Source: Terebella lapidaria
Lineage: Eukaryota; Annelida; Polychaeta; Terebellida; Terebellidae
NCBI GenBank assembly: GCA_949152475.1
Contig: OX424563.1
Location: 40,992,120-41,056,119, forward strand
Direction of reading: 5' to 3'
DNA: 64,000 nucleotides
Shown here one piece after another: positions 44,391 to 62,600 of the stretch. Numbering within the stretch: the first letter of the stretch is position 1; every line of letters begins with the position of its first letter. The position numbers and the translations under genes were made by a program. The notes beneath the pieces are model-generated. The model ran no database searches. It had not been told where the DNA came from and saw nothing but the letters and a program-made list of their open reading frames with translations.

Positions 44391-46221
44391 ACGCTCCACC
44401 GTACGATGGACATGCTATGCTCCACCGTACGATGGACATGTGACGCTCCACGGTACGATGGACATGGGATGCTCCACCATACGATGGACATGTGACGCTC
44501 CACCGTATGATGGACATGTGACGCTCCACCGTACGATGGACATGCGACGCTCCATCGTACGATGGACATGTGACAATCCACCGTAGATGGACATCTGACG
44601 ATCCTCTGTACGATGGACAAGCGACGCTCCACTGTACGATGGACATGTGACGCTCCACCGTACGATGTACATGCGACGCTCCATCGTACGATGGACTAGC
44701 GACACTCCACCGTAAGATGGACATGCGACGCTCCACCGTACGATGGACATGCGACGCTCCATCGCAGGATGGACATGTGACGCTCCACCGTACGAAGGAC
44801 ATGCGATGCTGCACCGTACGATGGACATGCAACGCTCCATCGTACGATAGACATGTGACACTCCACCGTAAGATGGACATGCGAGGCTCCACCGTACAAT
44901 AGACATGCGACGCTCCACTGTATGATGGACATGCGATGCTTTACTGTACAATGGACACGTGACGCTCCACCGTACGATGGACATGTGACGCTCCATCGTA
45001 CGATGGACTAGGGAAGCTCCACCGTAAGATGGATATGTGACGCTTCACAGTACGATGGACATGGGACGCTCCATCATACGATGGACATGTGATGCTCCAC
45101 TGTACGATGGACATGTGACGCTCCACCGTACGATGGACATGCGACGCTCCATCGTACGATGGACATGTGACGCTCCACCGTACGATGGACATGCGACGCT
45201 CAAATGTACGATGGACATGTGACGCTCCATCGTGCGATGGACATACGATGCTCCATCGTGCGATGGACATGCGACGCTCCATCGTACGATGGACATGCGA
45301 TGCTCCACTGTACGATGGACATGGGACGCTCCACCATACGATGGACATCTGACGCTCCACCGTACGATGGACATGCGATGCTCCAATGTACGATGGACAT
45401 GTGATGCTCAACCGTACGATGGACATGTGATGCTCCACCGTATGATGGACATGCAAGGCTCCACGGTACGATGGACATGTGACGCTCCATCGTATTATGG
45501 CCTAGTGACGCTCCATCATAAGATGGACATGCGACGCTCCACCGTACGATGGACATGCGATGCTCCACGTACGATGGACATGCGATGCTCCACCGTAAGA
45601 TGGACATGCGACGCTCCATGTACGATGGACATGTGACGCTCCACCGTACGATGGACATGCGACGCTCCACTGTATGATGGACATGCGATGCTTTACTGTA
45701 CAATGGACATGTGACACTCCACCGTATGGTGGACATGTGACGCTCCACCATACGATGGACATCTGACGCTCCACCATACGATGGACATGCGATGCTCCAC
45801 TGTACGATGGACATGTGACGCTTTACCGTATGATTGACATGCAAGGCTCCACCGTACGATGGACATGGGATGCTCCACTGTACGATGGACATGTGACGCT
45901 CCACCGTACGATGGACATGCGACGCTCCACCGTACGATGGACATGCGACGCTCCATCGTGCGATGGACATGCGACGCTCCATCGTGCGATGGACATTCGA
46001 CGCTCCACCGTATCATGGACATGCGACGCTCCATCGTACGATGGACATGCGATGCTCCACCGTACGATGGACATGCGACGCTTTATCGTACGATGGACAT
46101 GTGACGCTCCACCGTACGATCGACATGCGATGCTTCACAGTACGATGGACATGTGATGCACCACCGTACCATGGACATCTCACGCTCCATCATACGATGG
46201 ACATGCGATGCTCCACCGTAC

Positions 46222-46225
46222 GATA
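46222..46225. repeat. Target site duplication, left copy (GATA)
   Basis: GATA directly abuts the TG end of the LTR. The same four bases follow the other LTR at 59663-59666. Four to six bases is the normal range for Ty3/Gypsy integrases. With one GATA removed together with the element, the satellite reads through in register. Confidence 0.85.
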
Positions 46226-46232
46226 TGTGAAG

Positions 46233-46254
46233 AATATCGTTCACGGCCGATATT
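46233..46254 (-). other. Short inverted repeat at the U5 end of the LTR
   Basis: AATATCG and CGATATT form a perfect 7-bp stem around an 8-base loop, seven bases inside the LTR terminus. The other LTR has it at 58914-58935. In the genomic RNA this hairpin would sit just before the primer-binding site, where retroelements often have structure affecting priming or integrase recognition. The function here is inferred from position. Confidence 0.4.
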
Positions 46255-46312
46255 AAGCCGGTTTAACTGGGTCGTCGTGTGATACAATAAGCCGGCAGTT
46301 TCAATTTAACTG

Positions 46313-46318
46313 TTTATT
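46313..46318 (-). terminator. Polyadenylation signal AATAAA in 3' LTR
   Basis: AATAAA on the element strand, about 105 bases past the TATA-like box and about 90 bases before the LTR end. This position suits 3'-end formation of the genomic RNA within R. The 5' LTR copy is at 58994-58999. Confidence 0.5.
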
Positions 46319-46420
46319 GCGGTGATAAAGTCTAATGATCAATCACTCACAATCAGGGCCGCACTCTCACCTACGTCGGGTGATATCCCAGTCGAATTAT
46401 ATATATTCCTAGTATAGTCC

Positions 46421-46428
46421 TTTATATA
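46421..46428 (-). promoter_or_regulatory. TATA-like box in 3' LTR
   Basis: The copy of the 5' LTR box. If active, it would drive transcription leftwards out of the element into the satellite arm, giving transcripts of the satellite minus strand. Confidence 0.35.
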
Positions 46429-46981
46429 ACTTGTACATATATCCAATGGTTTCTATATCACTTGTATTCAGTTCGTATATTGATAATCGACAGACTTCAC
46501 AGGAGCTTTTTGTATAGACGTCCTGTCACTGGGATTTACACTACTCTTCTGCGCAGTAGACCGGGGCCGAGGGACCATGTGGCTGTGTAATTTCCCGCCA
46601 AGTGTAAGCAGTGTTGTGATAGGTTGAATGTGTGGTGCAATGCGCTGATGTCACCGGGAAAGTGGGTTTCCCCGGCTCGTGTCAATACTTGTAATGCCTG
46701 TATGTGTGCACGTGATGTATGGAGTATGTGTGTCAAGTTCTATGTTTAGAAGTCAGTGCATGTGAAGGTCAAGGTCGAGTAAACGGGGCCGAGTGTACTG
46801 AGCTAGCGGGGCCGCAGGTGCGTGGTTTGACCTGTGTATGTAACCATGACTACATGGAGTTTATGCCTGTGATCGTATAGTGTGTACTTGTCCTGTATGT
46901 AAGTCATGTAGAATGAATGTTTGTTGTGGAAATGTGTAGTGCGCGGGAGGGACGGGAGTAACAGTCGCTAAAATTACTACA

Positions 46982-46996
46982 TAACACCCCTTCATT
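46982..46996 (-). other. Putative polypurine tract
   Basis: On the element strand AATGAAGGGGTGTTA directly precedes the 3' LTR. The GAAGGGG core is the expected RNase H-resistant primer for plus-strand synthesis. It is short and interrupted by T residues, so the call depends mainly on position. Confidence 0.55.
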
Positions 46997-47487
46997 AATC
47001 CTACGCCCTCGGGATTACCCTACCCGGACCCTACCGTCGCCAAAAACTAAACAATAAAAAGCTAAAAAGTCCTAAAGGTCAAACCCAAAAACACTCACAC
47101 ACACACGCCGCGCGAAATGCGAAAACACTGCATACAATAAAAATTCCTAACTGTCAAAATAAACGTCAGCAGTCAGTCCGTCAGCAGTCTCTACGATGAT
47201 ACATATACAAATACATTCATAACAATGACTGATGAGAAATGGAATGTAAGAGATGGAATGATAAACAAAACTCCTCGACGTTTCAAAGCGAAACGGAACT
47301 ATAACTTTAAGAGTCTATTAAAGTGAAATAAAATGTAGATTAAATTTAACTAAATTACATGTATAAAAACGAAAAACCGTGACTAGGATGAAATATATAT
47401 ACAACTATTTACACAAATAAACCTGTGACCAGGATGATCGGTCACCACTGGGCCGCATCAGAGGGGCCGAACAGTTCGGGGCCGAGC
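46982..47487 (-). other. 3' untranslated region of the element
   Basis: About 500 bases between the ORF4 stop and the 3' LTR. Nothing coding is seen. Most of it is AT-rich, and it holds three GGGYCG hexamers close to ORF4. It ends with the polypurine-like tract. Confidence 0.7.
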
Positions 47488-48861
47488 CTACTTCTCTTCC
47501 CGTTCACGCCTGCTGGCGGGAGGAGGCGGGGCCGCTGGCGATGCTTGTCGCATGAGCTGCAACTGCTCATCCGGGGGTAACCTTGGCAGAATGGACACAA
47601 TTGTGGCCAAAAGCTCCCCCGGAATGGTCGGTGTAGACGGGGTCGTCGGGGCTGTTGCCTCCGGAGTAGTTGGGGTCGACGCTGCTTGGAGCCGAGCGTT
47701 TTCCTGTTGGAGGTTATCAACTCGATCCTCCAACTGAGTCACGCGAACTCGGAGCCGAAGATTTTCCTCGGACAGGGCGTCCGGGAACGTGGGCTGGTGG
47801 CGCTCATGTAGGGCGCCCATCCCAAAGCCGACAGCCAGGCCGTTGTACTCTGCCTGTCTGATGTGATGGTCCAGGGCCGACAGATACTCCCGACGAATTA
47901 GTCGCAAGTACTGGTGCGCTAAATCGTCAGCGCGGGCGAGTGACAGGGTCGGAAGGTGCTCCTCCGGTTCTGACGGCAGGAGCAAGGGGTCGGCGTTATG
48001 GGCGGCCTGTTCGAGACGAGCCGTCCAAAAGTCCTCGTGAAATCCGAGGTAGTTCGGGAGCCGCTGGGCGTCCTCATCCCGCAGAAAGTCTGTGAGGTCG
48101 GGGTTCTGGCCGGGTAGCGCCTGCAGGCCGGGAAGCGAGCGGGTCGCCAGACGTCTGCCGTGTTGCCGCAGGAACTGGAAATCGGCCGCAAACTCGCCGG
48201 ACCCATGAAGCGGTAGACGCTCGTCGAGGTCTCTGTGGAGTGACTCAAGCTGCTCCGGGTCGTCCACTTGGAGTCGGGGCCGGTCTCTATCGGTGCCGCG
48301 TGTCGGGACGGAGCACAGAGGTTCCACTTCCTCCGTGAGGTACGGCGGGAGCGGGACGGGTTCCACCATCCGTCGTGAAGGCTCTGGTGAAAATTCCGGG
48401 GTCGAAAACGGTGTCGGGGTCGCACGTACAGGAGAACCGGGTGCAATCTCCCTGAGTGGAGGTGGCCGATCCTCAACTGGACTCTTCGGCTCGGGAGTCT
48501 CCTTGCCGGTTGATGATGATACCGGTGTGGTATTCAGGGGTCGACTCGGGAGTGGCGGATACTCCTCAGGTGGAGGGACCAATCCCTCACGGACTCGGTA
48601 GTCCGTGACGTTAGAGGCCGTGGGTCGTTCCACAACCATCCGCCGGGGTATGATATCCGACGGCCGAGCTCTAGACGGGGTCGAAGATGTCACTGTGGTG
48701 ACCGGTCGAGTTGTCGCTGGCGACACCACTGTCGCGAACGAAGCCGTCGTGACGACTGCTGAGGCCGAAACACCGGTGGTCGTTGTCGGGACCTCCTCCG
48801 CCGTGCTCACCGATGTTGTCTGGTAGTTTATGGGCCGAACGAAGAAGATCGTACTGGGTCG
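47488..48861 (-). CDS. ORF4: leucine-zipper protein, in frame after ORF3 stop
   Basis: 457 codons that follow ORF3's TGA in the same frame without any other stop. There is no ATG near the start; the first in-frame codons like a start are GTG at 48810 and ATG at 48639. Residue numbers count from 48810. The first 170 residues are P/T/S-rich and probably disordered. About 185-330 looks helical and folded. At 346-376 leucines at 353, 360, 367 and 374 form four heptads of a leucine zipper, which suggests dimerisation. The C-terminus is P-rich and ends in charged residues. No membrane segment. It is probably made as an ORF3-ORF4 readthrough product; the alternatives are a separate product from the 48639 ATG, or a break by a recent nonsense change. 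Not recognised as a known family. Confidence 0.6.
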   Translation of the reverse strand, partial: RPSTIFFVRPINYQTTSVSTAEEVPTTTTGVSASAVVTTASFATVVSPATTRPVTTVTSSTPSRARPSDIIPRRMVVERPTASNVTDYRVREGLVPPPEEYPPLPSRPLNTTPVSSSTGKETPEPKSPVEDRPPPLREIAPGSPVRATPTPFSTPEFSPEPSRRMVEPVPLPPYLTEEVEPLCSVPTRGTDRDRPRLQVDDPEQLESLHRDLDERLPLHGSGEFAADFQFLRQHGRRLATRSLPGLQALPGQNPDLTDFLRDEDAQRLPNYLGFHEDFWTARLEQAAHNADPLLLPSEPEEHLPTLSLARADDLAHQYLRLIRREYLSALDHHIRQAEYNGLAVGFGMGALHERHQPTFPDALSEENLRLRVRVTQLEDRVDNLQQENARLQAASTPTTPEATAPTTPSTPTIPGELLATIVSILPRLPPDEQLQLMRQASPAAPPPPASRREREEK

Positions 48862-48864
48862 TCA
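48862..48864 (-). other. In-frame TGA between ORF3 and ORF4
   Basis: The codons around it read ATT TGA CGA CCC. UGA followed by C is the leakiest eukaryotic stop context, and UGA-CGG or UGA-CUA are known viral readthrough signals; UGA-CGA is one base from the first. The bases directly after the stop also form one copy of the element's repeated hexamer (CGACCC). Confidence 0.6.
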
Positions 48865-50286
48865 AATTCGAACCCGCGTGTTCATGGTCTCGATGTCACT
48901 GACCATGCGGGTAAGCCGAATCTCGTCTGCCGGGGTCGAAGCACGATTGTACTCCAGTCGACGGAGTACCTGTTGCACTTCCGGGGCCGAGTTGGGCGGA
49001 TACTGTTCAAAGAGCTCTGGCGCCATGTGCCAGATGCCGAACGTCAGGACGGTGTTGACATCCCTCCTGAAGATCGGGATGTTGGCCGGAACTCTTGGGG
49101 GTCGATAATTCGGGTTCGGCTGCATGTCGACTCTGCAGCGTAGCGCGAACCTGACGAGCATGGGGCCGGATGCCGATAGTCGTCCCTCCTGGTAGAAGGG
49201 GAACGACGTCACGTGTTGCGGGGTCGCTTGAGACAGATGCCGGAACATCTCCTCCTGGGCCAATGTCCGGAAGCCGTCGCGGGCCGGACACACGAAGTAG
49301 CGCAGGAATGGAAAATGATACGCTAGCACGTGCGCATCGAGACTCTGGGCCGTCCGGAAAGGTCCGCGTCGTGGCACGGAGGACCACTGTCGCTCTCCTG
49401 CTCCTTCCTCTTCGCCGATGCAGAAGGGGCACTCGAATCGACCGTCTCCACGCTGTAGCGGGGCCAATGTGAGGAGGTTTCCCTCCGACAGGGTCGATTG
49501 CTCATCGAAGTTATGGATGTGGCCGTATCCCGCGCTTCGATTTCGCTTGTTGAGTGGAACCTTGTTCCAGTCTATGGGCCGAGTTCCGTAGGGTGTCACG
49601 GGAGGTGGCACCAATTCCATCAATTCCGCCACTTGCCGACGGAAAGTCGAGGTCGGGGCCGTAATAGCAGATCCGCCGCTGGAGCGTGACGAACTGCTGG
49701 AGGTCGATCGGGCTCCCGCTCCATGCTTCTTCTTGAAAGAAGTATAAGTTCTCTTGTTTGGAGAACGGGAGGCCGCAGGTCGTGCTACCGCTGAACCGGA
49801 AGCGGGTGAAGTCGGGGCCGGAGCGATCGGGGCGATCACTTGATTTGCTGGGTCGGGTTGGCGGCTCGCGGTGGCGACTCGTTGAGCTTCTTGGGCCGCT
49901 TGTCGTGCTTCAATTGCACGCTGGACGATACTTCCGCCCTCCTCGAGTCGGCGGAAGCGTTCGGGGTCGATATTGAAGATGTCGTCCGGAGTCGGGCTCG
50001 GTGTGTGGCGCTCTCCTCGTTGCGCCAGCTTGTTCCGGGCCGTTCTGGGTCGCGCTCCCTTTTCCGATCCACTTGCCGTGTCACTGAGCGTGACTGGATC
50101 GCGCTGTTCAGGCTGCGAGTCGGGGCCGGACGAAACTTCGTTGTCGGGGACGATTATGGGATGATCTGATTCATCCCCGGTGTCGATTACCTGGACGGTG
50201 ATGTTATCGCCGTCCAACTTAACTGTGCGGGGCCGATTGTCACCTGGGTCGCCATTTTCCCGGTCGTCTCCGGGTTTGTCAGCCAT
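48862..50286 (-). CDS. ORF3: C2H2-like zinc-finger protein of unknown function
   Basis: 474 residues from an ATG in a good context (A at -3, G at +4). I do not recognise the protein. Residues 1-100 are acidic and low-complexity. About 165-205 is serine-rich with a basic KKK patch that could be a nuclear signal. A paired-cysteine motif, C286-x2-C289, is followed by H319-x4-H324, and C333 with H350 and H358 make a second, incomplete finger. The region 375-474 looks folded, with many aromatics and a helical end. There is no signal peptide or membrane segment, so it is not an envelope. It ends in TGA, and the same frame continues as ORF4. Base use and GGGYCG density match gag and pol, so it belongs to the element. 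A nucleic-acid-binding accessory protein is plausible but unproven. Confidence 0.7.
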   Translation of the reverse strand: MADKPGDDRENGDPGDNRPRTVKLDGDNITVQVIDTGDESDHPIIVPDNEVSSGPDSQPEQRDPVTLSDTASGSEKGARPRTARNKLAQRGERHTPSPTPDDIFNIDPERFRRLEEGGSIVQRAIEARQAAQEAQRVATASRQPDPANQVIAPIAPAPTSPASGSAVARPAASRSPNKRTYTSFKKKHGAGARSTSSSSSRSSGGSAITAPTSTFRRQVAELMELVPPPVTPYGTRPIDWNKVPLNKRNRSAGYGHIHNFDEQSTLSEGNLLTLAPLQRGDGRFECPFCIGEEEGAGERQWSSVPRRGPFRTAQSLDAHVLAYHFPFLRYFVCPARDGFRTLAQEEMFRHLSQATPQHVTSFPFYQEGRLSASGPMLVRFALRCRVDMQPNPNYRPPRVPANIPIFRRDVNTVLTFGIWHMAPELFEQYPPNSAPEVQQVLRRLEYNRASTPADEIRLTRMVSDIETMNTRVRI

Positions 50287-50310
50287 GCTGACGGGCCGAA
50301 ATCAAGCCGA

Positions 50311-50327
50311 AGTACTTCCCAAGTACT
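50311..50327 (-). other. Hairpin upstream of ORF3 (7-bp stem)
   Basis: AGTACTT and AAGTACT form a perfect 7-bp stem with a 3-base loop. It lies 25 bases before the ORF3 ATG in the reading direction and is one base away from the second hairpin. Confidence 0.55.
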
Positions 50328-50328
50328 G

Positions 50329-50376
50329 ACTAGGCTGGTTGTAACAAAGTCTGGATTTCTTCAAAACCAGCCTAGT
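50329..50376 (-). other. Hairpin upstream of ORF3 (12-bp stem)
   Basis: ACTAGGCTGGTT at 50329-50340 is the exact reverse complement of 50365-50376, with a 24-base loop. Together with the neighbouring 7-bp hairpin it makes a compact structured element just 5' of ORF3. It could influence splicing, RNA stability or translation start; no direct evidence for any of these. Confidence 0.6.
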
Positions 50377-51733
50377 TCAAATGCCGATAATCCAAGCCGA
50401 ATTAACTCCAAAGTCTTGTGACCAGGATTTCGATAATATCACAGTTTATAGGCCGATAAGTATTGTTCGATTAGCACAGTTTTTAGAACGATAGTCTGTA
50501 TTACAATAGCCGAAACTTCAAGTCCGTCTTCCTCCTTCAAAGTCTCAGGCACAAGTGACCTGATTGCCGCTAATCTTCAATGCCGTACACAAAGATGCTG
50601 ACAGCATCTCGATTCTTAGAACTGGGCCGGGGGGCGCTCTCTATATGTATAGAAAACGTCTTTACGCTATGTATCATTGTTCCAAGCGTACACACAGCAA
50701 GGCGGGGCCGTCGTCAAGGAAACGCGGGGCGATCCTTCTCTGACCTCTTGGGTCAGTCCATTACGACAGTAGGGGTGTCCTCACACTGTCCAGATTTCCG
50801 TATGTCCATCTGCCGTCCCCTGGATAACTCGTGCCGAATCATATCCTAAATGTACTTATCGACTGTTCGAATTACTGGGCTCTTTTTGCCCGACGACTCA
50901 CTATTGAAATTATTAAGGGGAGTTCATGGAGGTGCTGTGAACAGCTACAGGGTCTACCTGCGCTCGTGCGACCCTTGTGACCTGCACAGTTTATCGTTCC
51001 TTTTCTTTCCAAGTTAGCGCACAGTAGACTAACGGGGTCGATTTGCGGTTTAGCAGACGACACACAGTGATTAAAGGCTGAGATATTAATATCAATCACT
51101 CACAGGGGCGGACATCGTTCCGTTCATTATCAGCCAGTTCACAGGACGACGGGGCCGCTATATTGTTGGGGTCGAAGTTGCAATGATCTGGGTCGGTCAC
51201 ACCGCGGCGCTTTGAATATTTTGGGTGATGAATTTGGTGACAGGCCGCATCTTGGCATGATAGCTATGTAGTGACTGGTTCACGTACCACTGGGCCGTTC
51301 CTCCGAATATTACATGGAGTGAGTAGAGGCTCTGTCGACGCATACTCCAGAACGAATCACACTATCACCTCTTCGACAACTAAGTGGCCTTACTCACGGT
51401 GTGACTGGTTTTTATCCTCTTCGGCTGGCACATGGATGGAAGCTTTACATGATAATCTTAGTCATTGCGCAACATACGCTTTGATCAATGGTACATGTTA
51501 TACGGGGTCGAAACATATATCATAATGCAACCAATTTTTCCACCAGCATCATAATTATAATATCATATCTAGTGTGTATATAACGAATTTGCCTCACTGA
51601 CATCTTGTACATATTAAATGCATATATTGTTATTGTAATATAATATATTATTATTGGGAAAGACATGATATCATAGTCCATTAGACATGCATAATTCATC
51701 ATCAATGATATCAATCAGATAACAAGGCCGGGG

Positions 51734-54700
51734 TTATCTGTATCGGGCCGGTCTGCGTGCGTGGCGTCTGGGTCGATTTGGTCGTGCAGGCGGGGGCGTA
51801 GCCTCGCTTGTCTCGGGGTCGGAAGATACCACAGGCTTTTGCCTGGGTGTCTTGCGTGCCGGTTTTGGAGTGTCGGAACTTGATCTGTGTGATCTTTTCC
51901 GTTGCCGATGTCGACTTGAGCCGGATGAAGTCGGAGATCGCGATTGGCGATTCTGGGTCGTGGGCGAATCAGACTCAGCTGTTTGGTCTGAATCGGTATG
52001 CCGATCTTGGACTGTTACCTCCCAAGGGTAATAGAACTCCTTGAGAAGTCCCATGGGGTCGGGTGACTGTTCTGGGTCGGACTTGCTTGACGACGACGTG
52101 GGTCGTACAGGGTCGGAGTAGATGTGGGCCGCTTGGTTGTCACCTTCGTATGGCTTGAGCACATCCAGATGAACAACACGAGTGTTCCGAGGGTTGGAAA
52201 CCAGGGCGATTCGGTAATCCACCTCGGTTACACGGTCGATGATCCTCCAGGGACCAGTCCAGGGCCGAGCGAACTTATTATTCTGCGTGAGTGGCAGATA
52301 ATAATACCGGACCAGTTCGCCTGGTTGAAACTGGGGTCGTGGTTTCGCGTGGGCGTCATAACCCATCTTTTGCCGAATTGCTGCTTTCTCGAGATGGTCT
52401 TGTGCGAAACCGTGGGCCGTCCTGATGGCTTGCCGCAAATACTCCACATACTCCGGACCACACGGAGGTAGAGGCTCAGGGTCGTAGGTCGGAAACATGA
52501 GGTCGACTGGCAAGTTACACTCATGTCCATACACCATCAGATGCGGGGTGCATCCCGTGGACGAGTGTACTGAGGTTCGATAGGCCATTAACACATATGG
52601 CAAGTGCAAGTCCCAATCGTTTGCACGATCGCTGACGAACGCACTCAGCATGTTGAGCAATGTCCTGTTGAATCGCTCAACCTGGCCGTCGCTCTGGGGT
52701 CGGTATGGGGTCGTACGAATCTTCTTAGCGCCCAGTAGACGCACAACATGCCGGAACAGGGACGACTCGAACTCAGTACCTTGATCGCTATGGACCGCTT
52801 TGGGGACACCGTGGTAGACTATCCACCGATTCACCAGGGTGTCGGCAACATTTTTGGCCGTATGTCGCCGTAGCGGAAAAGCGTCAGTGTACTTCGTAAA
52901 GTAGTCCGACACGACTAGTACATACCGATAGCCTCTTCCCGTGACCTTGTGGGTGTCGAGGATGTCCATCGCTATTCTGTCGAACGGCGCTCCTGTCGGT
53001 AGCTGTGTCAGGGGCGATCTTTTTGGGGCCGGTTTACCCTTGCGGGTCACACATTGCGGGCAGCGGGCACACCAGCGGGCGACGTCCAGTGCCAAGCCGG
53101 GCCAGTAGAATCGGCGCCTGACTCTCTCGATGGTACGCTGTATGCCGAGATGTCCGACAATCTTGAGGTCGTGTAGTTGGTGCAGAACTTGTGTCCTGAG
53201 TGCTACGGGGAGCACGGTCTGTACCACACGTCGTCCAGCGGGGTCGGGTCTTGTGTTTCGTACCAGTACTCTGTCTTGTAGCACCAGGAGGTTCCAGCGA
53301 GAAACAAGTGTCTTTACCTCCTCTCCTTGGCGGGCGACTTCTCGCGAGTCAGGCTTGGTGCCGGCTAGTATCCATTGCCGCACTTTTCCGACGCTGGGGT
53401 CGGCTTGCTGTGCCGCGACAATGTCCTGGGTCGAATAGTCCGAAAGCCACTTTTGTCCATCAAGTGTGGCGTCCAAAGCACGGACTCGAACAACTTGGCG
53501 TGCCGAAACTAGCTGGGGCAAGACCGGTGATGTTATCGAATCACTGTCCAGGAGGTCTGCCCTTGTCTGGGTCGGAACAACAGTTATCCGACGAACTGGA
53601 AGTTCTCCGGAACTTGTTTCTGGGTCGGTCGGAGGTGTGACGAGTCGTCCGGGACAGTCTTGGTGTTTGCAACTGTGGCACCGTGACAAGCCGTCGGCGT
53701 TACCGTGTAATTTTCCGGGTCGATGCTCTATCCGAAAGTCATACTGCTGTAGCTTGGCGAGCCACCTAGCGAGCATGCCGTCGGCGTCGCTGTAGTTTTT
53801 CAGCCACCTTAGCGAGCTATGGTCGGTTCGGAGGAGGAATTTCCTACCCCAGAGGTAGTGCCGATAGTGTTGCACCATCTCAACTACTGCCAGTAGTTCC
53901 CGATAGGTGGTGCAATAGTTCCGCTGGGTCCGGGACAGGGTCTTGCTGGCGAACCCGATGGGGATCTCCTTCCCGTTAACCCTTTGTGAGAGGGCTCCTC
54001 CCACAGCAAAGCCGCTTGCATCCATATCGAGGATGAAGTAGTCCTCCGGATTCTGGGTCGGATGAGCGAGCTTGGGCGCCTTGATGAGGGCGTCGCGGAG
54101 TCGCTGGAAAGCTCGTCGCTGGGCCGGTCCCCAAGTGAAGTGGCATTCACCTCGGGTAAGCGCTACGAGAGGTTCAGCGATCTCAGCGTAGTCCTTGATG
54201 AATCGCCTGTGGTAGTTGGCGAAACCAAGGAAAGCCCTGACGTCGGTGATCTCGCACGGGGTCGGCCATTCTCTGATGGCTTTGACTTTGTTGGGGTCGA
54301 CTCGGATTCCTTGGCCGCTCACTATGAACCCTAAGTACAAGATTTCCCGTTGGAACAACTCACACTTCTTGGGCTGAAGTTTCAGGCCTGCCGATCTGAT
54401 TCGATCCAGGACCGCTTCCAGGTTTGCGAGTGCCTGGTCGAATGTTCTGCCGTAAGCTATCACGTCGTCGAGATAGCACATACACCGGGTCCACAAGTAA
54501 CCACGGAGTATGGTCTCCATAAGCCGTTCGAAGGTTGCCGGGGCGTTGCTAAGGCCGAATGGCATGACCTTAAACTGATAGAGTCCCTTCCTTGTGGCAA
54601 AGGCAGTCTTCGGTCTGTCGCTGGGGTCGACTTCAACCTGCCAGTAGCCAGAGGCCAGGTCTAGGGCCGAGAAGTAGTTGGCGCCTGCCAGGGCGTCATG

Positions 54701-56308
54701 AGTGTCCTGAATGTTGGGCAAGGGATACGAATCCTTGCGGGTGACGTCATTCAGGAGCCGATAGTCGACACAGAAGCGTACTTGTCCGTTCTTCTTCCGC
54801 ACGAGCACTACCTGTGCGCTCCAGGGCGAATCGGACGGCTCAATACACCCCAAGCGGAGCATCTTGTCGATCTCCTCGTCGATGATGCTTTGCTGTGCCT
54901 GAGGGACGCGTCGCTGTCGTTGTCGAATTGGGGCCGAGTTGCCGGTGTCGATTCTATGCTGGACGACTTGGGTCCGTCCCAGTTGGCCGTCTGGGTGCAT
55001 AAATGTGTCCTGGTATTGGTGAACCAGGTTGGCGCAACGCCGATGCTGTTCCGGCGCTAGTCCGGCGCGATCCACCATTTCTTGTAGATGTGGCGGTAGG
55101 TCGCGGTAGTGACTGGCGTCTACCGTGGCCGGGTCGGGCTCCTCTCCGGGTCGTGGCAGAGCTCCGACGACACTTTCAACAGGGCTTGCTATGGCGACAG
55201 GGTCGGAACGGGTGAGCGTAATGCCGGTATCTGCTGGATTGACTACCGACACCTTTACGCACTGCCGATTCAGGGTCGTAAGTGTTCTCCCCATGATGAG
55301 GTCGGTTTCCTCGGGAAAGGTCGTAAGTGGCTGGACTATCCTCGGGTGTTGTCGAACTCGAACTCGGGAAGTCGGGACCAGCTCCACTATTGCTTCGCTG
55401 CGTGCGGGGACGGTGACAGCTCGTCGCACGGCCATTCTGACAACATTGGCCTCAATGTCTTTATGTGCGAACAGGATTTCTTTGTGTACCTGTATCGTTC
55501 CTTCACCGTAATTCACTACAGCGTGAGCTTGCCGAAAAAAGTTCATGCCGAGAATCATGTCGTCATGTATGTCAGCCACACAAAAGGTTACGACCATATG
55601 GTTAGTTCCGACCTGTATTGAGAGGTCGATCAGTCCATCGATCGGGCTTGACTGTCCGGTGACGTCACGAATAATAGCCGAAGTAGACCGCAAATGTCGC
55701 TGGTCAGCGGGGACGTGACGTAGCTGATCGCGTCGGAGCAGGGAGATCTGCGCTCCGGAGTCGAGTACAGCCTTTATCGTCTTGTTTCCGACGTGTACCG
55801 GCAACTTCCAGCATTTGTGATTGGTGGCGCTGGAGTTGTTGATGACAGCCGGAATTTCGGGGTCGTCTAGCGGTGGCCGGAAGAGTGTGTGCAGAGGCGG
55901 CAGTTTGGATTCCGGTCCACTCGGAAAAGCGTAGAATCCTCCGTCGTCGGAGATCCACTCGATCTCGGACATGCTGTCCGTTCCGGTGCCGTTGGCGGTC
56001 GGGGGTGACACCCCTTCAGGACGACGGTCTCCACGTGGTGGTCGCTGTGGCCGCGGTGCGGACACCCCTTCATGAAAAGAGGCCGATTTCGAGGTCGGAG
56101 CTTGACATTTTGTACACACCCCTTCAAGGAGCTGAGGTGTGGGCTGGGCCGGCTGCGGGGTCGTTATTGGTGTCGTTACCGGTACAGTAGTCGTGACAAC
56201 CGCAGATGTGGAGCGGGGAACGTTGTCCTGTTGTCTGGAAGGTCCTTGCTCCTCAGCACCTTCCCCTACTGGTTTGACGACGGGGTCGGAGGTGTTGGTG
56301 GGGCCGGT
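51734..56308 (-). CDS. pol: Pol polyprotein (protease, RT, RNase H, integrase)
   Basis: Copies RNA into DNA and inserts it. The frame is open from 56308, inside gag, with no ATG near its start, so expression as a Gag-Pol fusion by -1 frameshift is likely. Residue numbers count from the GTG at 56119. The aspartic protease has DSGA at 120-123 and an ILG at 189-191. Reverse transcriptase has the first aspartate in FSALDL (487) and YLDD at 549-552. RNase H shows D700, E741, D766 and D809. Integrase has an HHCC zinc motif (983, 990, 1020, 1023) and D1052, D1112, E1148 with 35 residues between the last two. A GPY/F-like module around 1285-1325 is followed by a long disordered tail (about 1340-1461), acidic/serine-rich and then strongly basic. 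No chromodomain is visible. Domain order is that of Ty3/Gypsy and nothing is truncated. Confidence 0.96.
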   Translation of the reverse strand, partial: TGPTNTSDPVVKPVGEGAEEQGPSRQQDNVPRSTSAVVTTTVPVTTPITTPQPAQPTPQLLEGVCTKCQAPTSKSASFHEGVSAPRPQRPPRGDRRPEGVSPPTANGTGTDSMSEIEWISDDGGFYAFPSGPESKLPPLHTLFRPPLDDPEIPAVINNSSATNHKCWKLPVHVGNKTIKAVLDSGAQISLLRRDQLRHVPADQRHLRSTSAIIRDVTGQSSPIDGLIDLSIQVGTNHMVVTFCVADIHDDMILGMNFFRQAHAVVNYGEGTIQVHKEILFAHKDIEANVVRMAVRRAVTVPARSEAIVELVPTSRVRVRQHPRIVQPLTTFPEETDLIMGRTLTTLNRQCVKVSVVNPADTGITLTRSDPVAIASPVESVVGALPRPGEEPDPATVDASHYRDLPPHLQEMVDRAGLAPEQHRRCANLVHQYQDTFMHPDGQLGRTQVVQHRIDTGNSAPIRQRQRRVPQAQQSIIDEEIDKMLRLGCIEPSDSPWSAQVVLVRKKNGQVRFCVDYRLLNDVTRKDSYPLPNIQDTHDALAGANYFSALDLASGYWQVEVDPSDRPKTAFATRKGLYQFKVMPFGLSNAPATFERLMETILRGYLWTRCMCYLDDVIAYGRTFDQALANLEAVLDRIRSAGLKLQPKKCELFQREILYLGFIVSGQGIRVDPNKVKAIREWPTPCEITDVRAFLGFANYHRRFIKDYAEIAEPLVALTRGECHFTWGPAQRRAFQRLRDALIKAPKLAHPTQNPEDYFILDMDASGFAVGGALSQRVNGKEIPIGFASKTLSRTQRNYCTTYRELLAVVEMVQHYRHYLWGRKFLLRTDHSSLRWLKNYSDADGMLARWLAKLQQYDFRIEHRPGKLHGNADGLSRCHSCKHQDCPGRLVTPPTDPETSSGELPVRRITVVPTQTRADLLDSDSITSPVLPQLVSARQVVRVRALDATLDGQKWLSDYSTQDIVAAQQADPSVGKVRQWILAGTKPDSREVARQGEEVKTLVSRWNLLVLQDRVLVRNTRPDPAGRRVVQTVLPVALRTQVLHQLHDLKIVGHLGIQRTIERVRRRFYWPGLALDVARWCARCPQCVTRKGKPAPKRSPLTQLPTGAPFDRIAMDILDTHKVTGRGYRYVLVVSDYFTKYTDAFPLRRHTAKNVADTLVNRWIVYHGVPKAVHSDQGTEFESSLFRHVVRLLGAKKIRTTPYRPQSDGQVERFNRTLLNMLSAFVSDRANDWDLHLPYVLMAYRTSVHSSTGCTPHLMVYGHECNLPVDLMFPTYDPEPLPPCGPEYVEYLRQAIRTAHGFAQDHLEKAAIRQKMGYDAHAKPRPQFQPGELVRYYYLPLTQNNKFARPWTGPWRIIDRVTEVDYRIALVSNPRNTRVVHLDVLKPYEGDNQAAHIYSDPVRPTSSSSKSDPEQSPDPMGLLKEFYYPWEVTVQDRHTDSDQTAESDSPTTQNRQSRSPTSSGSSRHRQRKRSHRSSSDTPKPARKTPRQKPVVSSDPETSEATPPPARPNRPRRHARRPARYR
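56008..56125 (-). repeat. Three polypurine-tract-like 10-mers, 54 bp apart
   Basis: GAAGGGGTGT occurs on the element strand at 56125-56116, 56071-56062 and 56017-56008. Steps are exactly 54 bases (18 codons), each encoding E-G-V in the N-terminal part of Pol. The bases between are not obviously alike. The same 10-mer forms the core of the polypurine tract at the 3' LTR. It may act as extra plus-strand priming sites or be a decayed minisatellite. Confidence 0.6.
56266..56308 (-). other. gag-pol overlap with presumed -1 frameshift
   Basis: Pol's frame opens after a TAA at 56309-56311 and gag stops with TAG at 56266-56268. The overlap is 43 bases, and pol lies one base back relative to gag. No heptamer of the classic X-XXY-YYZ form was found. 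The nearest candidate is the A-AAC step just before the gag stop. The exact shift site is therefore undetermined. Confidence 0.6.
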
Positions 56309-58842
56309 TTAGTTTGGTTACCGGTTTGGTTAGGTACTGACAACACTTGAGCTGTCCTTCTGTCAGTACCGGGACCATTGGGCCGAAATGCTAGCGGTTT
56401 CATGCCGTTACGTACTAGCACATCCTTAAGCCGAAAGCACCGCATCCAGCGATGGCCGGGCTTCTTGCAAAAGAAGCACACCATGGGTCGTCCGGGTTGC
56501 GGGGGTCGATCACCTTTCATCGGGGCCGTTGTTCGTAGGACAGAGAAGATAGCCGTTTCCTCGCATAGTCCATTCTCGTCACTAAGGACACACTGGAAGG
56601 CTTCGGCCACCCACTCGCGTGAGCTGGTTGGCACTGAGTGTTCGTCGCAACCTTGTAGGCCGGTAGTGTCACTGTCCGCGGGGTCGTAGTAGGCCGCAAT
56701 TTGCTCTGGGGTTAGTGTTTCCCCCTGAGTGACTTGTCCCATGGCACAGGACAGTTCTTCATTGACAGGGTCGTCTTCCGCGTATCCACTTGCGGAAATG
56801 TCGGCACGTCGTGTGCCTCGATGTCGATCTCTGGCTGTCCTCTGTTGATGACTCTCTACCTTGAGAACGGCCGTAAGTGCCTCACTGTAACTGTTAAAAG
56901 TGAGGGCACACAGTTTATCGGCAATGGGGTCGGGTTGGCCGTTCACGAATTGCGCAATTACAGTTCGTTGCCGCGACGTTGGCGTAACGTCATCGAACAC
57001 TTGCTCCGCCAGGGCTTGGAGTCGCTCCATGTAGTGTTCCGCGTCCTCTTTTCGTTCCCGCTTGAGGAACGGGAAATCATCCCGTTTAGACTGTCGACGG
57101 GGCTCGGGTTCCCAGCCCTCGAGGAGTTGGCGACGGAACTCTCCCCAGGGAGTTGCGACCGGGATATTTAGAGCTAGCGCTTCAGCGCGGCCGCGCAGCG
57201 TGCTCCGGAAGGTCGTCGTCTTGTTGAGGTCAGAGTAAGTAAAAGCCGCAGTAAACTGTTCGAAACTCCGAACGTATTGAGTGAGATTGCCCTCCTTGAA
57301 GGTCGCACGCCATTGAGCCATTTTAGCCATAGCCAACGTTTGGGGCTCAGACGTGAGTCTCTGTGGCGTGGGCGTGTCAACACTCACCGCAACTGGTGTA
57401 GTCGCTGTAGTGGCTGTCGGAGTCGGAACAGCCGAAGTCGCCGGAGCCGTCGTATCTGGGTCGATCGGGGTCGCGTTAGCGGGGGCGGTCGGTGCTGTCG
57501 TCGCGGAGACGGCGAGCGATGCGGCGGGTGGTGCCGTCGTGTGTCTGGGGTCGTGTGGTGCTTGTGCAGCGGGGGCCGATTGACTATATGGAGGCGTCAC
57601 CCATGGTATCCCGACTGAGGGTGGGAATGCAGCCGGTGGTGGATATCGGTATACCGATCCATCTGGGCATACACCATGGTACACTAATCCAGGTTGTGCA
57701 CCATGATAGCCGGTGTCAGCTATCACGCTGGGAACGCCACCATATCCAGGCGGTGGGTTCGCGTAGCCGACATGCGGTGAATAGTATCCGACAGCTACTC
57801 CATTTGGAACACCGCTTGTTGCGCCAGGGTATCCGACTGGCGGTACACCATATCCGTTGGTGTTTCCGACTGATTGTGAGATCGGAGGTCCGATCATTGG
57901 CACAACACTTTCTGCCGGAGCAGACACAACTTGATCTTGCGACGGATCGAAGCGCGGTTGTTCTCCGGTAGTCGGCGATGGTCGGTGCGTGGTCGGCGCG
58001 GGAGCGCGTGTGTCAGAAGTCGGCGTGTCGGGGTCGCAGGGTCGGCGACTTGATGTCGAGGGTGCTTGTCGGGGTCGCGCTTGTCGCATGGTGGCGCGAG
58101 ATTCCGTCATCGTGTCGCTGGGTCGTTGTTGTCGTAGCGGCGTCGCGATCCGGGTAGCGGTCGTCGCCAGGATGTCTTCGGATGTCGCTCCCGTCTGGCT
58201 GGGTCGTGTGTACTCTACCACCGTAGGCTCGGTCGGTATGCGTGAGTACATTTCTGGCGCGGGGCCGTGTTGTCTCAGCGTCATGGACGGCGCCAGGGGT
58301 CGATTGGCCGAATAAGCGTTCGGCGGGGTCGATTCCGGAACATTGTCAGACTGACAAACCCACTGTCGTATCCGAGAGTTACTTGGTGGGTGCGTAACCA
58401 TTGACGTGTCTATGGTTACCGGCCGAACGTTCACTGCTAATTGTTCTGGGTCGATATCACAATCTACGCTCGCTCTTTGACGTGAGCGCGTATAGTTTCT
58501 GTCGGCAAAGTCACTTTTCTGCGTCGCTCTAGCCGGCGTGGCCGAGTACGCTCTAGCGTGCGCACGCAGAATGTCACTTACTGTATGTGACGGCGCGAGC
58601 GGGTCTTCGTCTAGGAACTCCTGCACCAGGTCGGTAGGCGGCGAAAACGATCTCAGGGACGAATGGTCGCCAATGGAGTCGAAAAGGCCGGACGGTTGTT
58701 GCTCCTGCGACAGTGGAACTGTATCGCTCATGGCAACTGAGCGAGGGCCGGAAGGTCGGAAGGCCGGATTCGGATTGATCGTCACTTCATCATCCGTAGG
58801 GTCGAGTGGCTCACCGCGGGAGGCTCCCGGGGCCAATGCCAT
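56266..58842 (-). CDS. gag: Gag polyprotein
   Basis: Structural protein expected to form the virus-like particle and bind the genomic RNA. The open frame begins at a TTG (58845), but the first ATG is at 58842, giving 858 residues, longer than typical Gypsy Gag (300-500). Residues 1-500 look disordered, rich in P, T, S and A, with a Y/G/P-rich stretch around 325-410. About 505-670 resembles the retrotransposon Gag capsid domain, with a WRATF start, a conserved tryptophan run and a helical ending. A zinc knuckle of the C-x2-C-x4-H-x4-C form sits near 790-803, as expected for nucleocapsid. The last 43 bases overlap pol, which is in the -1 frame. The function call rests on the capsid-like region, the knuckle and the position directly upstream of pol. 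Confidence 0.9.
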   Translation of the reverse strand: MALAPGASRGEPLDPTDDEVTINPNPAFRPSGPRSVAMSDTVPLSQEQQPSGLFDSIGDHSSLRSFSPPTDLVQEFLDEDPLAPSHTVSDILRAHARAYSATPARATQKSDFADRNYTRSRQRASVDCDIDPEQLAVNVRPVTIDTSMVTHPPSNSRIRQWVCQSDNVPESTPPNAYSANRPLAPSMTLRQHGPAPEMYSRIPTEPTVVEYTRPSQTGATSEDILATTATRIATPLRQQRPSDTMTESRATMRQARPRQAPSTSSRRPCDPDTPTSDTRAPAPTTHRPSPTTGEQPRFDPSQDQVVSAPAESVVPMIGPPISQSVGNTNGYGVPPVGYPGATSGVPNGVAVGYYSPHVGYANPPPGYGGVPSVIADTGYHGAQPGLVYHGVCPDGSVYRYPPPAAFPPSVGIPWVTPPYSQSAPAAQAPHDPRHTTAPPAASLAVSATTAPTAPANATPIDPDTTAPATSAVPTPTATTATTPVAVSVDTPTPQRLTSEPQTLAMAKMAQWRATFKEGNLTQYVRSFEQFTAAFTYSDLNKTTTFRSTLRGRAEALALNIPVATPWGEFRRQLLEGWEPEPRRQSKRDDFPFLKRERKEDAEHYMERLQALAEQVFDDVTPTSRQRTVIAQFVNGQPDPIADKLCALTFNSYSEALTAVLKVESHQQRTARDRHRGTRRADISASGYAEDDPVNEELSCAMGQVTQGETLTPEQIAAYYDPADSDTTGLQGCDEHSVPTSSREWVAEAFQCVLSDENGLCEETAIFSVLRTTAPMKGDRPPQPGRPMVCFFCKKPGHRWMRCFRLKDVLVRNGMKPLAFRPNGPGTDRRTAQVLSVPNQTGNQTKPAPPTPPTPSSNQ

Positions 58843-58906
58843 CAATGCCGGTCAGGTCTGGGTCGATAATCCGAGACTAGCTCAGATCCTGGTCGAACGG
58901 CGCCAA
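58843..58906 (-). other. 5' leader between LTR and gag
   Basis: Only 64 bases separate the 5' LTR from the gag ATG, and the primer-binding site fills the first part. An in-frame TGA lies just upstream of the start, so gag cannot extend into the LTR. Packaging signals would therefore have to overlap gag or the LTR. Confidence 0.6.
58888..58905 (-). other. Putative primer-binding site
   Basis: After the LTR end and one spacer base, the element strand reads TGGCGCCGTTCGACCAGG. A leading TGG pairs with the CCA end of a tRNA, and TGGCGCC is the start of many retroelement primer sites. I could not match the full 18 bases to a specific tRNA from memory, so the primer is left open. Confidence 0.6.
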
Positions 58907-59662
58907 TGTGAAGAATATCGTTCACGGCCGATATTAAGCCGGTTTAACTGGGTCGTCGTGTGATACAATAAGCCGGCAGTTTCAATTTAACTGTTTATTG
59001 CGGTGATAAAGTCTAATGATCAATCACTCACAATCAGGGCCGCACTCTCACCTACGTCGGGTGATATCCCAGTCGAATTATATATATTCCTAGTATAGTC
59101 CTTTATATAACTTGTACATATATCCAATGGTTTCTATATCACTTGTATTCAGTTCGTATATTGATAATCGACAGACTTCACAGGAGCTTTTTGTATAGAC
59201 GTCCTGTCACTGGGATTTACACTACTCTTCTGCGCAGTAGACCGGGGCCGAGGGACCATGTGGCTGTGTAATTTCCCGCCAAGTGTAAGCGGTGTTGTGA
59301 TAGGTTGAATGTGTGGTGCAATGCGCTGATGTCACCGGGAAAGTGGGTTTCCCCGGCTCGTGTCAATACTTGTAATGCCTGTATGTGTGCACGTGATGTA
59401 TGGAGTATGTGTGTCAAGTTCTATGTTTAGAAGTCAGTGCATGTGAAGGTCAAGGTCGAGTAAACGGGGCCGAGTGTACTGAGCTAGCGGGGCCGCAGGT
59501 GCGTGGTTTGACCTGTGTATGTAACCATGACTACATGGAGTTTATGCCTGTGATCGTATAGTGTGTACTTGTCCTGTATGTAAGTCATGTAGAATGAATG
59601 TTTGTTGTGGAAATGTGTAGTGCGCGGGAGGGACGGGAGTAACAGTCGCTAAAATTACTACA
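58907..59662 (-). repeat. 5' LTR
   Basis: 756 bp, identical to the left LTR except at 59291. It lies upstream of gag in the element's reading direction, so it should supply the promoter. The LTR ends 65 bases before the gag ATG. A short frame of 66 codons inside it starts with TTG, is present in both LTRs, and is not considered a gene. Confidence 0.97.
59102..59109 (-). promoter_or_regulatory. TATA-like box in 5' LTR
   Basis: Reads TATATAAA on the element strand, followed by GG. It is about 550 bases into the LTR and about 105 bases upstream of the AATAAA signal. Transcription would be expected to start roughly 25-30 bases further, near 59075. This rests on the motif alone; the same box in the 3' LTR is at 46421-46428. 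Confidence 0.4.
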
Positions 59663-59666
59663 GATA
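59663..59666. repeat. Target site duplication, right copy (GATA)
   Basis: Partner of 46222-46225. The satellite continues with GAAATGTGATGCTCC, which fits the common monomer variant reading GATAGACATGTGATG with a single C-to-A change. Confidence 0.85.
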
Positions 59667-62600
59667 GAAATGTGATGCTCCATTGTACGATGGATATCTG
59701 ACGCTCCACCGTACAATGGATATGCGATGCTCCACCGTACGATGGACATGGGACGCTCCACCGTACGATGGACATGTGATGCTCCACCGTATGATGGACA
59801 TGCGAGGCTCCACTGTACGATGGACATGTGATGCTCCACCGTACGATGGACATGGGATGCTCCGTCGTACGATGGACATGTGACGCTCCACCGTACGATG
59901 GACATGCGACGCTCCACGGCACGATGGACATGTGATGCTCCATCGTCCGACGGACATGCGACGCTCCATCGTACGATGAACTAGCGAAGCTCCACCGTAA
60001 GAAGGACATGCGACACTCCATCGTACGATGGACATGTGACGCTCCACCGTACAATGGACTAGTGATGCTCCACCGTACGATGGACATGCGACGCTCCATC
60101 GTACGATGGACTAGCGAAGCTCCACCGTAAGATGGACACGTGAAGCTCCACAGTACGATGGACATGGGACGCTCCATCATACGATGGACATGTGACGCTC
60201 CACCGTGCGATCGACATGCGATGCTCCACCGTACGATCGACATGTGACGCTCCACCGTACGATGGACATGTGACGCTCCACTGTATGATGGACATGCAAA
60301 GCTCCACTGTACGATGGACATGTGATGCTCCACCGTACGATGGACATGCGACGCTCCATCGTGCGATGGACATGCGATGCTCCATCGTGCGATGGACATT
60401 CGACGCTCCAACGTATGATGGACATGCGAAGCTCCATCGAAGATGGACCTGTGATGCTCCACGGTACGATGGACATGGGACGCTCCACCGTACGATGGAC
60501 ATAGGTCGCTCCATCGTACGATGGACATGTGACGCTTCACCGAACGATTGACATGCGAGGCCCCACTGTATGATGGACATGTAACACTCCACCATACGAT
60601 GGACATCTGACGCTCCTCCGTACGATGGACATGCGACGCTCAAATGTGCGATGGACATGTGACGCTCCACCGTACGATGGACATACGACGCTCCATCGTA
60701 TGATGGCCTAGTGACGCTCCATCGTAAGATGGACATGCGACGCTCCACCGTACGATGGACATCTGATGCTCCACCATACGATGGACATGTGACACTCCGC
60801 TGTACGATGGACATGCGACGCTCCACTGTACGATGGACATGTGACGCTCCACCGTACGATGGACATGCGATGCTCCACCGTATGATGGACATGTGATGCT
60901 CCATCGTACGATGGACATCTGACGCTCCACTGTACGATGGACATGCTATGCTCCACCGTACGATAGACATGTGACGCTCCACCGTACGATGGACATGGGA
61001 TGCTCCATCGTACGATGGACATGTGACGCTCCACCGTACGATCGACATGCGATACTCCAACGTATGATGGACATGTGATGCTCCACCGTACGATGGACAT
61101 GTGACGCTCCACCGTACGATGGACATGCGACGCTCCACTGTATGATGGACATGCGATGCTTTACTGTACAATGGACACGTGACGCTCCACCGTATGATGG
61201 ACATGCGACGCTCCATCGTACGATGGACTAGCGAAGCTCCATCGTACGATGGACTAGCGAAGCTCCACCGTAAGATGGACATGTGCTGCTCCACAATACA
61301 ATGGACATGGGATGCTCCATCATACGATGGACATGAGATGCTCCATCATATGATGGACATGTGGCCCTCCACCGTACGATGGACATCTGACGCTCCTCCG
61401 TATGATGGACATGCGACGCTCCACCGTAAGGTGGACATGCGACGCTCCACCGTACGATGGACATGTGACGCTCCACCGTACGATGGACATCTGACGCTCC
61501 TCCTTACGATGAACATGCGACGCTCAAATGTACGATGGACATGTGACGCTCCATCGTACGATGGACATGCGACGCTCCATCATATGATGGCCTAGTGACG
61601 CTCCATCGTAAGATGGACATGCGACGCTCCACCGTACGATGGACATGTGATTCTCCACTGTATGATGGACATGTGACGCTCCACCGTACGATGGACATGC
61701 GACGCTCCAATGTACGATGGACATGCGACGCTCCACTGTACGATGAACATGCGATGCTCCACTGTACGTTGGACATGGGACGCTCCACCGTATTATGGAC
61801 ATGCGAGGCTCCACCGTACGATGGACATGGGATGCTCCATCGTACGATGGACTTTTTGACGCTCCACCGTATTATGGACATGCGAGGCTCCACCGTACGA
61901 TGGACATGCGATGCTCCACCGTACGATGGACCTGTGACGCTCCTCCGTACGATGGACATGCGACGCTCCACTGTACGATGGACATGTGACGCTCCACCGT
62001 ACGATGGACATGCGACGCTCCATCGTATGATGGCCTAGCGACGCTCCACCGTAAGATGGACAAGCGACGCTCCATTGTACGATGGACATGCGATGCTCCA
62101 CGTACGATGGACATGTGACGCCCCACCGTACAATGGACATGCGACGCTCCACTGTATGATGGACATGCGACGCTCCACCGTACGATGGACATGCGATGCT
62201 CCATCGCAGGATGGAGATGTGACGCTCCACTGTACGAAGGACATGCGATGCTCCACCGTACGATGGACATGCGACGCTCCATCGTACGATAGACATGTGA
62301 CACTCCACCGTAAGTTGGACATGCGAGGCTCCACCGTACAATAGACATGCGACGCTCCACTGTATGATGGACATGCGATGCTTTACTGTACAATGGACAC
62401 GTTACGCTCAACCGTAAGATGGACGTGCGATGCTGCACAGTATGATGGACATGGGACGCTCCATCATACGATGGACATGTGATGCTCCACCATACGATCG
62501 ACATGCGATGCTCCACCGTACGATCGACATGTGATGCTCCACCGTACGATGGACATGTGACGCTCCACCATAGGATGGACATGTGACGCTCCACTGTATG

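Follow-up and report, generated by a model that had tools for sequence, protein, structure and literature searches.

The 64,000-nucleotide stretch of Terebella lapidaria contig OX424563.1 that we analysed, hereafter the window, holds a complete long terminal repeat (LTR) retrotransposon of the Ty3/Gypsy type, here called family A, whose sense strand carries one short word, CGRCCC, along its whole length. The word is kept by selection as nucleotides, both in the genes and between them, and a sister family that shares this genome, family B, has a different word of its own. We propose, with about even confidence, that copies of the word, scattered over the element, serve as a self-recognition tag specific to the family, and that a protein which the element encodes reads this tag on the sense strand and would thereby single out the element's own RNA.

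Since the sense strand of the element is the minus strand of the window, CGRCCC appears as GGGYCG on the plus strand. Within the element (46226–59662) the word occurs 118 times in the sense and once in the antisense orientation, in agreement with the asymmetry of about 118 to about 1 reported in a first-pass annotation of this DNA, and the remaining 50.6 kb of the window contain 1 sense and 0 antisense copies. Five LTR copies are counted twice in this total, leaving 113 distinct sites. Across 500 dinucleotide shuffles of the element, the sense word averaged 15.5 copies (standard deviation 3.6, maximum 28), so that the excess claimed in the annotation stands while its expectation of 7–10 copies was somewhat too low. 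The antisense word is mildly depleted, with 1 copy vs 6.4 expected and 10 of the 500 shuffles at or below one. The contrast is weaker when the whole window is shuffled and both strands are counted, where 120 copies are seen vs 73 expected and the largest count among 100 shuffles was 96.

The sites lie in both LTRs, in every stretch between the open reading frames (ORFs), in all four ORFs and in all three codon frames, as had been described from the sequence at first reading. Synonymous shuffles that kept the proteins (n = 2000) predicted 9.6 copies in pol, 7.5 in gag, 3.6 in ORF3 and 3.2 in ORF4, whereas 34, 24, 19 and 14 are observed, and none of the 2000 shuffles reached the observed count in any of the four; the means of codon-order shuffles fell below those of the synonymous shuffles. 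The codon-preserving shuffle that the annotation had named as a possible refutation therefore leaves the claim intact, and together with the use of all frames it bears out the earlier statement that no protein repeat is responsible. Where the amino acids permit the word, it is present at 19 of 23 sites in ORF3, 34 of 55 in pol, 14 of 26 in ORF4 and 24 of 52 in gag. Between the ORFs and in one LTR there are 22 sense copies vs 1.3 expected, and 1 antisense copy. Four of these 22 fall in two short gaps for which translation is probable, because the pol open frame reaches ∼56308 and because other copies have ORF3 and ORF4 joined in a single frame, which leaves 18 strictly noncoding sites. Neither codon choice nor amino-acid pairs account for the excess of the word.

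The core described at first reading, CGRCCC, holds, but the full motif is longer. Of the 22 copies between the ORFs and in the LTR, 20 have C or A at position 7 and 18 have G at position 8 (16 and 15, respectively, of the 18 strictly noncoding sites), which gives CGRCCCMG, and the bases flanking it show no clear preference. This 8-mer occurs 63 times in the sense orientation vs 2.1 expected, and 0 times in antisense. Synonymous choices extend the motif in the same way, since CCG, the commonest proline codon outside motifs, is avoided where position 7 is the wobble base of a proline codon (2 of 30, vs 95 of 242 elsewhere; p = 2e-4). Half-sites made of CGRC and two non-G bases are also in sense excess (145 vs 85.6 in coding sequence, 16:4 between the ORFs), whereas CCMG alone shows no excess (115 vs 140.8); the half-site excess looks more like graded affinity than like an inserted cassette. 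A secondary sense-strand excess in the element is that of TCGGC, and both this pentamer and the half-sites are possibly weak sites of the same reader.

Each copy of the motif has its own surroundings. The 40 bases flanking pairs of motifs match at 10.43 positions, compared with 10.18 for random pairs, and no tandem repeats were found in the element; this rules out tandem duplication as the source of the motifs and implies that the copies arose one by one, independently. Given these unrelated flanks, and ratios of 118:1 in family A and 51:2 in family B, the orientation itself seems to be selected. The gaps between motifs are irregular, as noted before, and resemble a Poisson process (coefficient of variation 1.04), with no period found, so that periodic or cooperative spacing was rejected. 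Motif bases are predicted to be unpaired more often than those of composition-matched hexamers (0.52 vs 0.44), and the same holds against shuffled flanks (0.48 vs 0.42).

A search of the same genome (761.6-Mb assembly) returned at least 32 pol matches, including that of the window, from 15,774 candidates of which the search scored 32, and at least 90 ORF3 matches from 1914 candidates of which it scored 90, so that true copy numbers may be higher. We compared the window with pol of 26 other copies and with 15 of the 20 3′ pieces (window 47400–51736) that were fetched, the remaining 5 having been left out of the conservation counts because of deletions; the tests count variable sites, not mutational events. 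The number of words is steady, at 34–36 in each of the 26 other pol copies and 46–48 in the complete 3′ pieces. In the pooled data, third codon positions vary at 3 of 134 sites within motifs vs 288 of 2190 outside (p = 2.3e-5), and fourfold sites at 3 of 112 vs 152 of 1186 (p = 6e-4). The difference is present at CpG sites (2/171 vs 71/1222, p = 0.006) and at non-CpG sites (4/315 vs 479/6850, p = 5e-6), at strictly noncoding sites (1/72 vs 151/1439, p = 0.008), in the pol–ORF3 stretch alone (0/54 vs 125/1375, p = 0.012), and when the comparison is with non-motif hexamers matched in composition (8/576 vs 32/638, p = 3e-4). For the 3′ piece alone, motif conservation reaches p = 9e-9. In pairwise comparisons of 7 of the 20 3′ pieces, which have common ancestry and are not independent, motif bases differ at 1 of 282 in each of three complete copies at ∼5% divergence and at 1 of 72 in each of four copies at ∼10.7% divergence. 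Drift of motif positions at the pace of the surrounding bases, the other possible refutation named in the annotation, is thus not what the copies of family A display: the motif positions vary less.

Family B was found in the same genome by a search with a relative's pol. Its identity to the window is 81–85% in pol, ∼50% in gag, 48% in ORF3 and 47–50% in ORF4. CGRCCC is near chance in this family (8 sense and 4 antisense copies in 9.9 kb; 4 in pol vs 4.1 in synonymous shuffles). In contrast, a blind scan of the B copy L073, covering hexamers in which no more than one position was degenerate, ranks CGRACT first, at 51:2 with 11.3 expected. In synonymous shuffles of family B sequence (n = 2000), CGRACT is in excess in pol (23 vs 5.9, maximum 14) and in ORF3/4 (20 vs 5.9, maximum 14), and in the gag part its 7 copies vs 1.7 expected equal the shuffle maximum of 7; in noncoding sequence it occurs 8 times in sense and 0 times in antisense. 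Further B pieces show the same bias (18:0 in L074, 19:0 in L075, 29:3 in L076, 28:2 in L078 and 30:4 in L079), with the close variants CGGACY or CGKACT scoring slightly above CGRACT in L076 and L078, while CGRACT is unbiased in family A (12:10). When the two pol genes are aligned, no position is shared between the 34 A sites and the 23 B sites, and one A site lies within 3 bases of a B site. Both words fit one frame, C-G-R-n-C, as might be expected of a single reader in which some contacts have been altered. A supposed third family, L077, proved to be family B (97.5% identical); positions 1–4401 of L077 appear to be a rearranged B copy in which the 3′ part of pol and the start of ORF3 recur ∼1.4 kb after the first pol end.

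The annotation had suggested a multivalent binding site, a proposal that is well supported by the conservation among copies, the lack of a duplication origin and the different word of the sister family. In the explanation we favour, CGRCCCMG would act as a multivalent self-recognition tag over the entire element, with a separate version for each of the two sister families (CGRCCCMG for A, CGRACT for B). The sites are co-oriented with transcription, in noncoding sequence as well, which points to reading in single-stranded sense RNA or to a directional process on DNA; we consider sense RNA the most likely substrate. The reader would be a protein encoded by the element, its specificity having presumably shifted together with the tag, and the many sites on each long RNA could give high avidity. 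The least certain step is the last, in which the protein may gather the full-length RNA of its own family, as opposed to RNA of co-resident sister families or of the host, for ribonucleoprotein assembly, export or packaging.

The zinc-finger-like protein of ORF3, downstream of pol, is the leading candidate for this reader, and we favour the ORF3/4 product in this role. In the C-terminal half of ORF3, the residues C286, C289, H319, H324, C333, H350 and H358 are kept in family B, where the identity of this half to A is 55–68%. Residues 284–360 may form a new zinc-binding domain (CPFC...LDAHVLAYH, VCPARDG...M..H...H), kept in B and with no homologue found elsewhere. The annotation had also offered the zinc knuckle of Gag as a reader; as the part that sets the word it is disfavoured, since it is nearly identical in two families with different words. 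From residue 511 onward, 6 of 8 blocks of 40 residues in Gag have 76–93% identity between the families, and the remaining two have 0.50 and 0.55. Divergence between the families is greatest in the N-terminal region of Gag (identity 0.20–0.38), and the N-terminal half of ORF3, parts of ORF4 and the pol tail are also more diverged than the C-terminal half of ORF3.

Several results weigh against a tag of this kind, or against ORF3 as its reader. Because regions other than the C-terminal half of ORF3 differ more between the families, divergence alone names no reader. That ORF3 binds nucleic acid at all is a guess from its Cys/His spacing: no Pfam family was assigned to it, no homologue was found at E ≤ 0.001 among 8000 candidates scored, none for its C-terminal half at E ≤ 10 among 1325, and a Protein Data Bank (PDB) search gave one match, at chance level. 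Derivatives lacking ORF3 have apparently multiplied, as two of the 3′ pieces in which it is missing have common breakpoints. The conservation is uneven: pol on its own gives a weak signal (p = 0.048; p = 0.08 at third positions), none is seen in the gag-end piece (2/90 vs 48/1380 in seven copies, p = 0.77), and C at fourfold sites taken separately falls short of significance (3/65 vs 37/369, p = 0.24). For family B, tests on three pol and two 3′ sequences gave no significant conservation of CGRACT in pol (2/114 vs 108/3855, p = 0.77), at third positions (0/38 vs 77/1285, p = 0.16) or in the 3′ piece (4/174 vs 128/4227, p = 0.82). Replacement of one word by the other is not total, since 3 of the 34 A sites still read CGACCC in B and 3 of the 23 B sites read CGGACT in A, and the comparison of words covers two families. 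The shift towards unpaired bases at motifs is small. In yeast Ty3, nucleotides 429–4979 of the RNA are reported to be dispensable in cis (PMC4974528). Lastly, in the available text on VANC21, whose sites in Arabidopsis DNA transposons are dense and share one orientation (PMC5735166), orientation goes with binding to DNA, and thus is by itself no proof that RNA is read.

The ORF3 region is largely missing in 4 of the 20 fetched 3′ pieces (L054, L056, L059 and L071), and L056 and L059 have identical breakpoints on both sides of the loss. These deficient copies keep their remaining motifs, apart from one motif lost in L071 and one gained in L059.

A DNA-level system similar to VANC, in which a protein of the element binds the word in chromosomal copies and blocks methylation or heterochromatin, is the alternative that survives best, though we consider it unlikely. 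VANC is the only system we found described, in the portions of the reports available, to have short family-specific motifs in one orientation that coevolve with an element protein (PMC5735166, PMC10398659). As in the VANDAL elements, a short family-enriched word here has many co-oriented copies and is different in a relative; for VANC, density matters and the binding protein is encoded by the element, a protein whose existence is presumed here. The Cys/His spacing of ORF3, which is zinc-finger-like and conserved between the families, and a CpG observed/expected ratio of 1.10 in the element, which is not depleted compared with 0.49–0.82 in three 4-kb host samples, would suit such a system. On the other hand, the words of VANC are described as binding double-stranded DNA, as carried by DNA transposons, and as mainly noncoding and often in tandem repeats, whereas here an LTR retrotransposon has singly arisen sites in all codon frames and in noncoding DNA, with no tandem repeats. 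A protein that binds DNA might be expected to accept both orientations, yet the stretches between the ORFs and the LTR have 22:1; the alternative can keep the orientation if the protein assembles directionally or acts together with transcription. We weigh a reading in RNA above it because the orientation of VANC sites can come from duplication, an origin that cannot explain 118:1 among copies that arose singly, for which orientation was chosen at many independent origins. ORF3 had no match in Pfam or in the protein search, no direct comparison with VANC having been made.

We attach little probability to a host RNA- or DNA-binding factor that reads the word, for export, stability or licensing, and for which the element has accumulated sites. 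RNA hexamers read by the host exist, such as the hexanucleotides of the DSR bound by Mmi1 in fission yeast (PMC3352096), where a sequence-specific RNA-binding protein is likewise involved; as far as that report is available, they belong to a host system of RNA elimination and are not the tag of a mobile element. The annotation had listed a single host factor among its candidates, but since the sister family in the same genome is near chance for CGRCCC and has another word instead, two factors, or one covering both words, would be required. Either word is also scarce in three arbitrary 4-kb host stretches (12 kb in all; CGRACT 6:3 in one). That the word pairs with a small RNA or a structural RNA, serving as guide, sponge or seed sites, seems highly improbable: R at position 3 is compatible with a U (A–U or G–U) and the six-base core is sharp, but M (C or A) at position 7 is not matched by one ordinary partner base, CGRACT in the sister family would require a second RNA, and no Rfam match was found at gathering thresholds in 45500–60500. 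Least of all do we credit a bias in composition or mutation, codon usage, a repeat in the proteins or an artefact of assembly. The sense strand is C-rich, and motif octamers account for 289 of the 697 C residues by which it exceeds G. However, the dinucleotide, synonymous and codon-order shuffles reject composition, codon usage and dipeptide repeats, only one copy lies in the satellite DNA of the window, the 26 other pol copies hold 34–36 words each, and the unusual mutational process raised in the annotation is disfavoured by the different word of the sister family and by the constraint on third-position and noncoding motif bases, which speaks against neutrality.

The tag we propose also differs from known RNA signals. 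RNA viruses and hepatitis B virus have multiple dispersed packaging signals (PMC6281560), which similarly are many short motifs along an RNA; the recurrence of the word, and its conservation as nucleotides as seen in family A, fit signals of this kind. In the available text these are stem–loops read by the particle protein, whereas here we find, at the level of sequence, a sharp linear 8-mer at ∼113 sites, and different words in sister families. Ty3 shares with family A the Ty3/Gypsy type and a single CCHC knuckle in the nucleocapsid. Its cis signals are delimited to the RNA ends, and the accessible part of that report mentions no dispersed word (PMC4974528). Our literature searches for the phenomenon found no description of it.

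The word looks particular to family A. No comparable word was found in 24 distant loci with 29–46% pol identity, which are contigs in bacterial and archaeal assemblies and presumably contaminants; their best asymmetric score was 8.4, from an AT run, vs 19.2 here. Sites whose amino acids permit the word are in excess in pol of the window (z 2.6) but in none of 19 relatives (z −2.46 to 1.07), whose pol proteins are 47–59% identical over the alignment. The raw conservation of motif residues in pol is lower than that of other residues (0.44 vs 0.57) because the motifs sit at variable columns; an excess of window-specific replacements at these residues was rejected after correction for column variability, as the residue commonest among the relatives is found at 39 of the 73, with 42.3 expected. 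Searches of viral contigs gave no relatives of pol, of the pol alignment, or of ORF3 or ORF4 by peptide patterns.

It is an old question how a retroelement can tell its RNA or DNA apart from the RNA or DNA of near relatives in the same cell, and the search for recognition signals usually concentrates on a single short region, of the packaging or promoter type. In this element, recognition seems to extend over the whole length and to constrain synonymous and noncoding sites at once, with a tag apparently rewritten between sister families whose pol genes are still 81–85% identical. A broader version of this idea, to which we give somewhat less than even weight, is a password evolving across the clade, in which an RNA-binding protein of the element would read one short word repeated around a hundred times along the family's RNA, in genes as well as noncoding sequence, and sister families would rewrite nearly the whole word set along with the reader. 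If true, this would amount to a speciation of selfish RNAs by recognition specificity. The reader could be found by simple binding selection, as the proteins of two families can be used with words that are known beforehand.

The features of the element are collected in Table 1. Its boundaries were placed correctly in the annotation, as judged by the 756-bp LTRs, which mismatch at 1 of 756 sites, and by the GATA duplications. These LTRs and the target duplication, together with the Pfam domain order protease–RT–RNaseH–integrase, identify a Ty3/Gypsy (Metaviridae) element. A 26-bp satellite fills the rest of the 64-kb window, ∼50 kb (1–46221 and 59667–64000), its period having been measured within 44000–62000 only. 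The 5′ LTR has a TATAAA near 59107 and an AATAAA near 58999, and the TGGCGCC... stretch beside it is probably the primer-binding site, as is usual in LTR elements. The gag product has no Pfam family above the cut-off; its single CCHC zinc knuckle near the C-terminus, CFFCKKPGHRWMRC, was recognised by eye.

Table 1. Features of the family A element, in window coordinates; word starts are plus-strand positions
Feature	Coordinates	Strand	Basis or word copies
Complete LTR retrotransposon, family A, Ty3/Gypsy type	46226..59662	−	LTR pair, target duplication, pol domains
Target-site duplication GATA, left copy	46222..46225		read from sequence
3′ LTR, 756 bp	46226..46981	−	5 word copies: 46269, 46356, 46564, 46786, 46809
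3′ untranslated stretch	46982..47487	−	3 word copies: 47450, 47464, 47479
ORF4, 440 aa, Pro-rich	47488..48810	−	14 word copies vs 3.2
ORF3, 474 aa, low-complexity N-terminal half, zinc-finger-like C-terminal half	48862..50286	−	19 word copies
pol–ORF3 noncoding stretch, 45% GC	50287..51733	−	9 word copies vs 0.5 (first-order Markov)
pol: protease, RT, RNase H, integrase	51734..56119, from first listed start codon	−	Pfam
gag	56266..58845	−	24 word copies vs 7.5 in synonymous shuffles
Probable primer-binding site TGGCGCC..., adjoining 5′ LTR	58888..58905	−	position read from sequence
5′ LTR, 756 bp	58907..59662	−	5 word copies: 58950, 59037, 59245, 59467, 59490
Target-site duplication GATA, right copy	59663..59666		read from sequence

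The open frame of pol, in extending to ∼56308, overlaps the end of gag, and its C-terminal tail (51734–52100) is basic and Ser/Arg-rich, with a diverged counterpart in family B. ORF4 may contain a coiled coil, judged by eye and from sub-threshold Pfam matches. ORF3 and ORF4 form a single 937-codon open frame in 13 of the 15 complete 3′ pieces of genomic copies, and by a count made by eye this frame surrounds ORF3 in 78 of the 90 ORF3 matches listed. In the window copy a stop separates the two (47488–50286), although the copy is young by the near identity of its LTRs.

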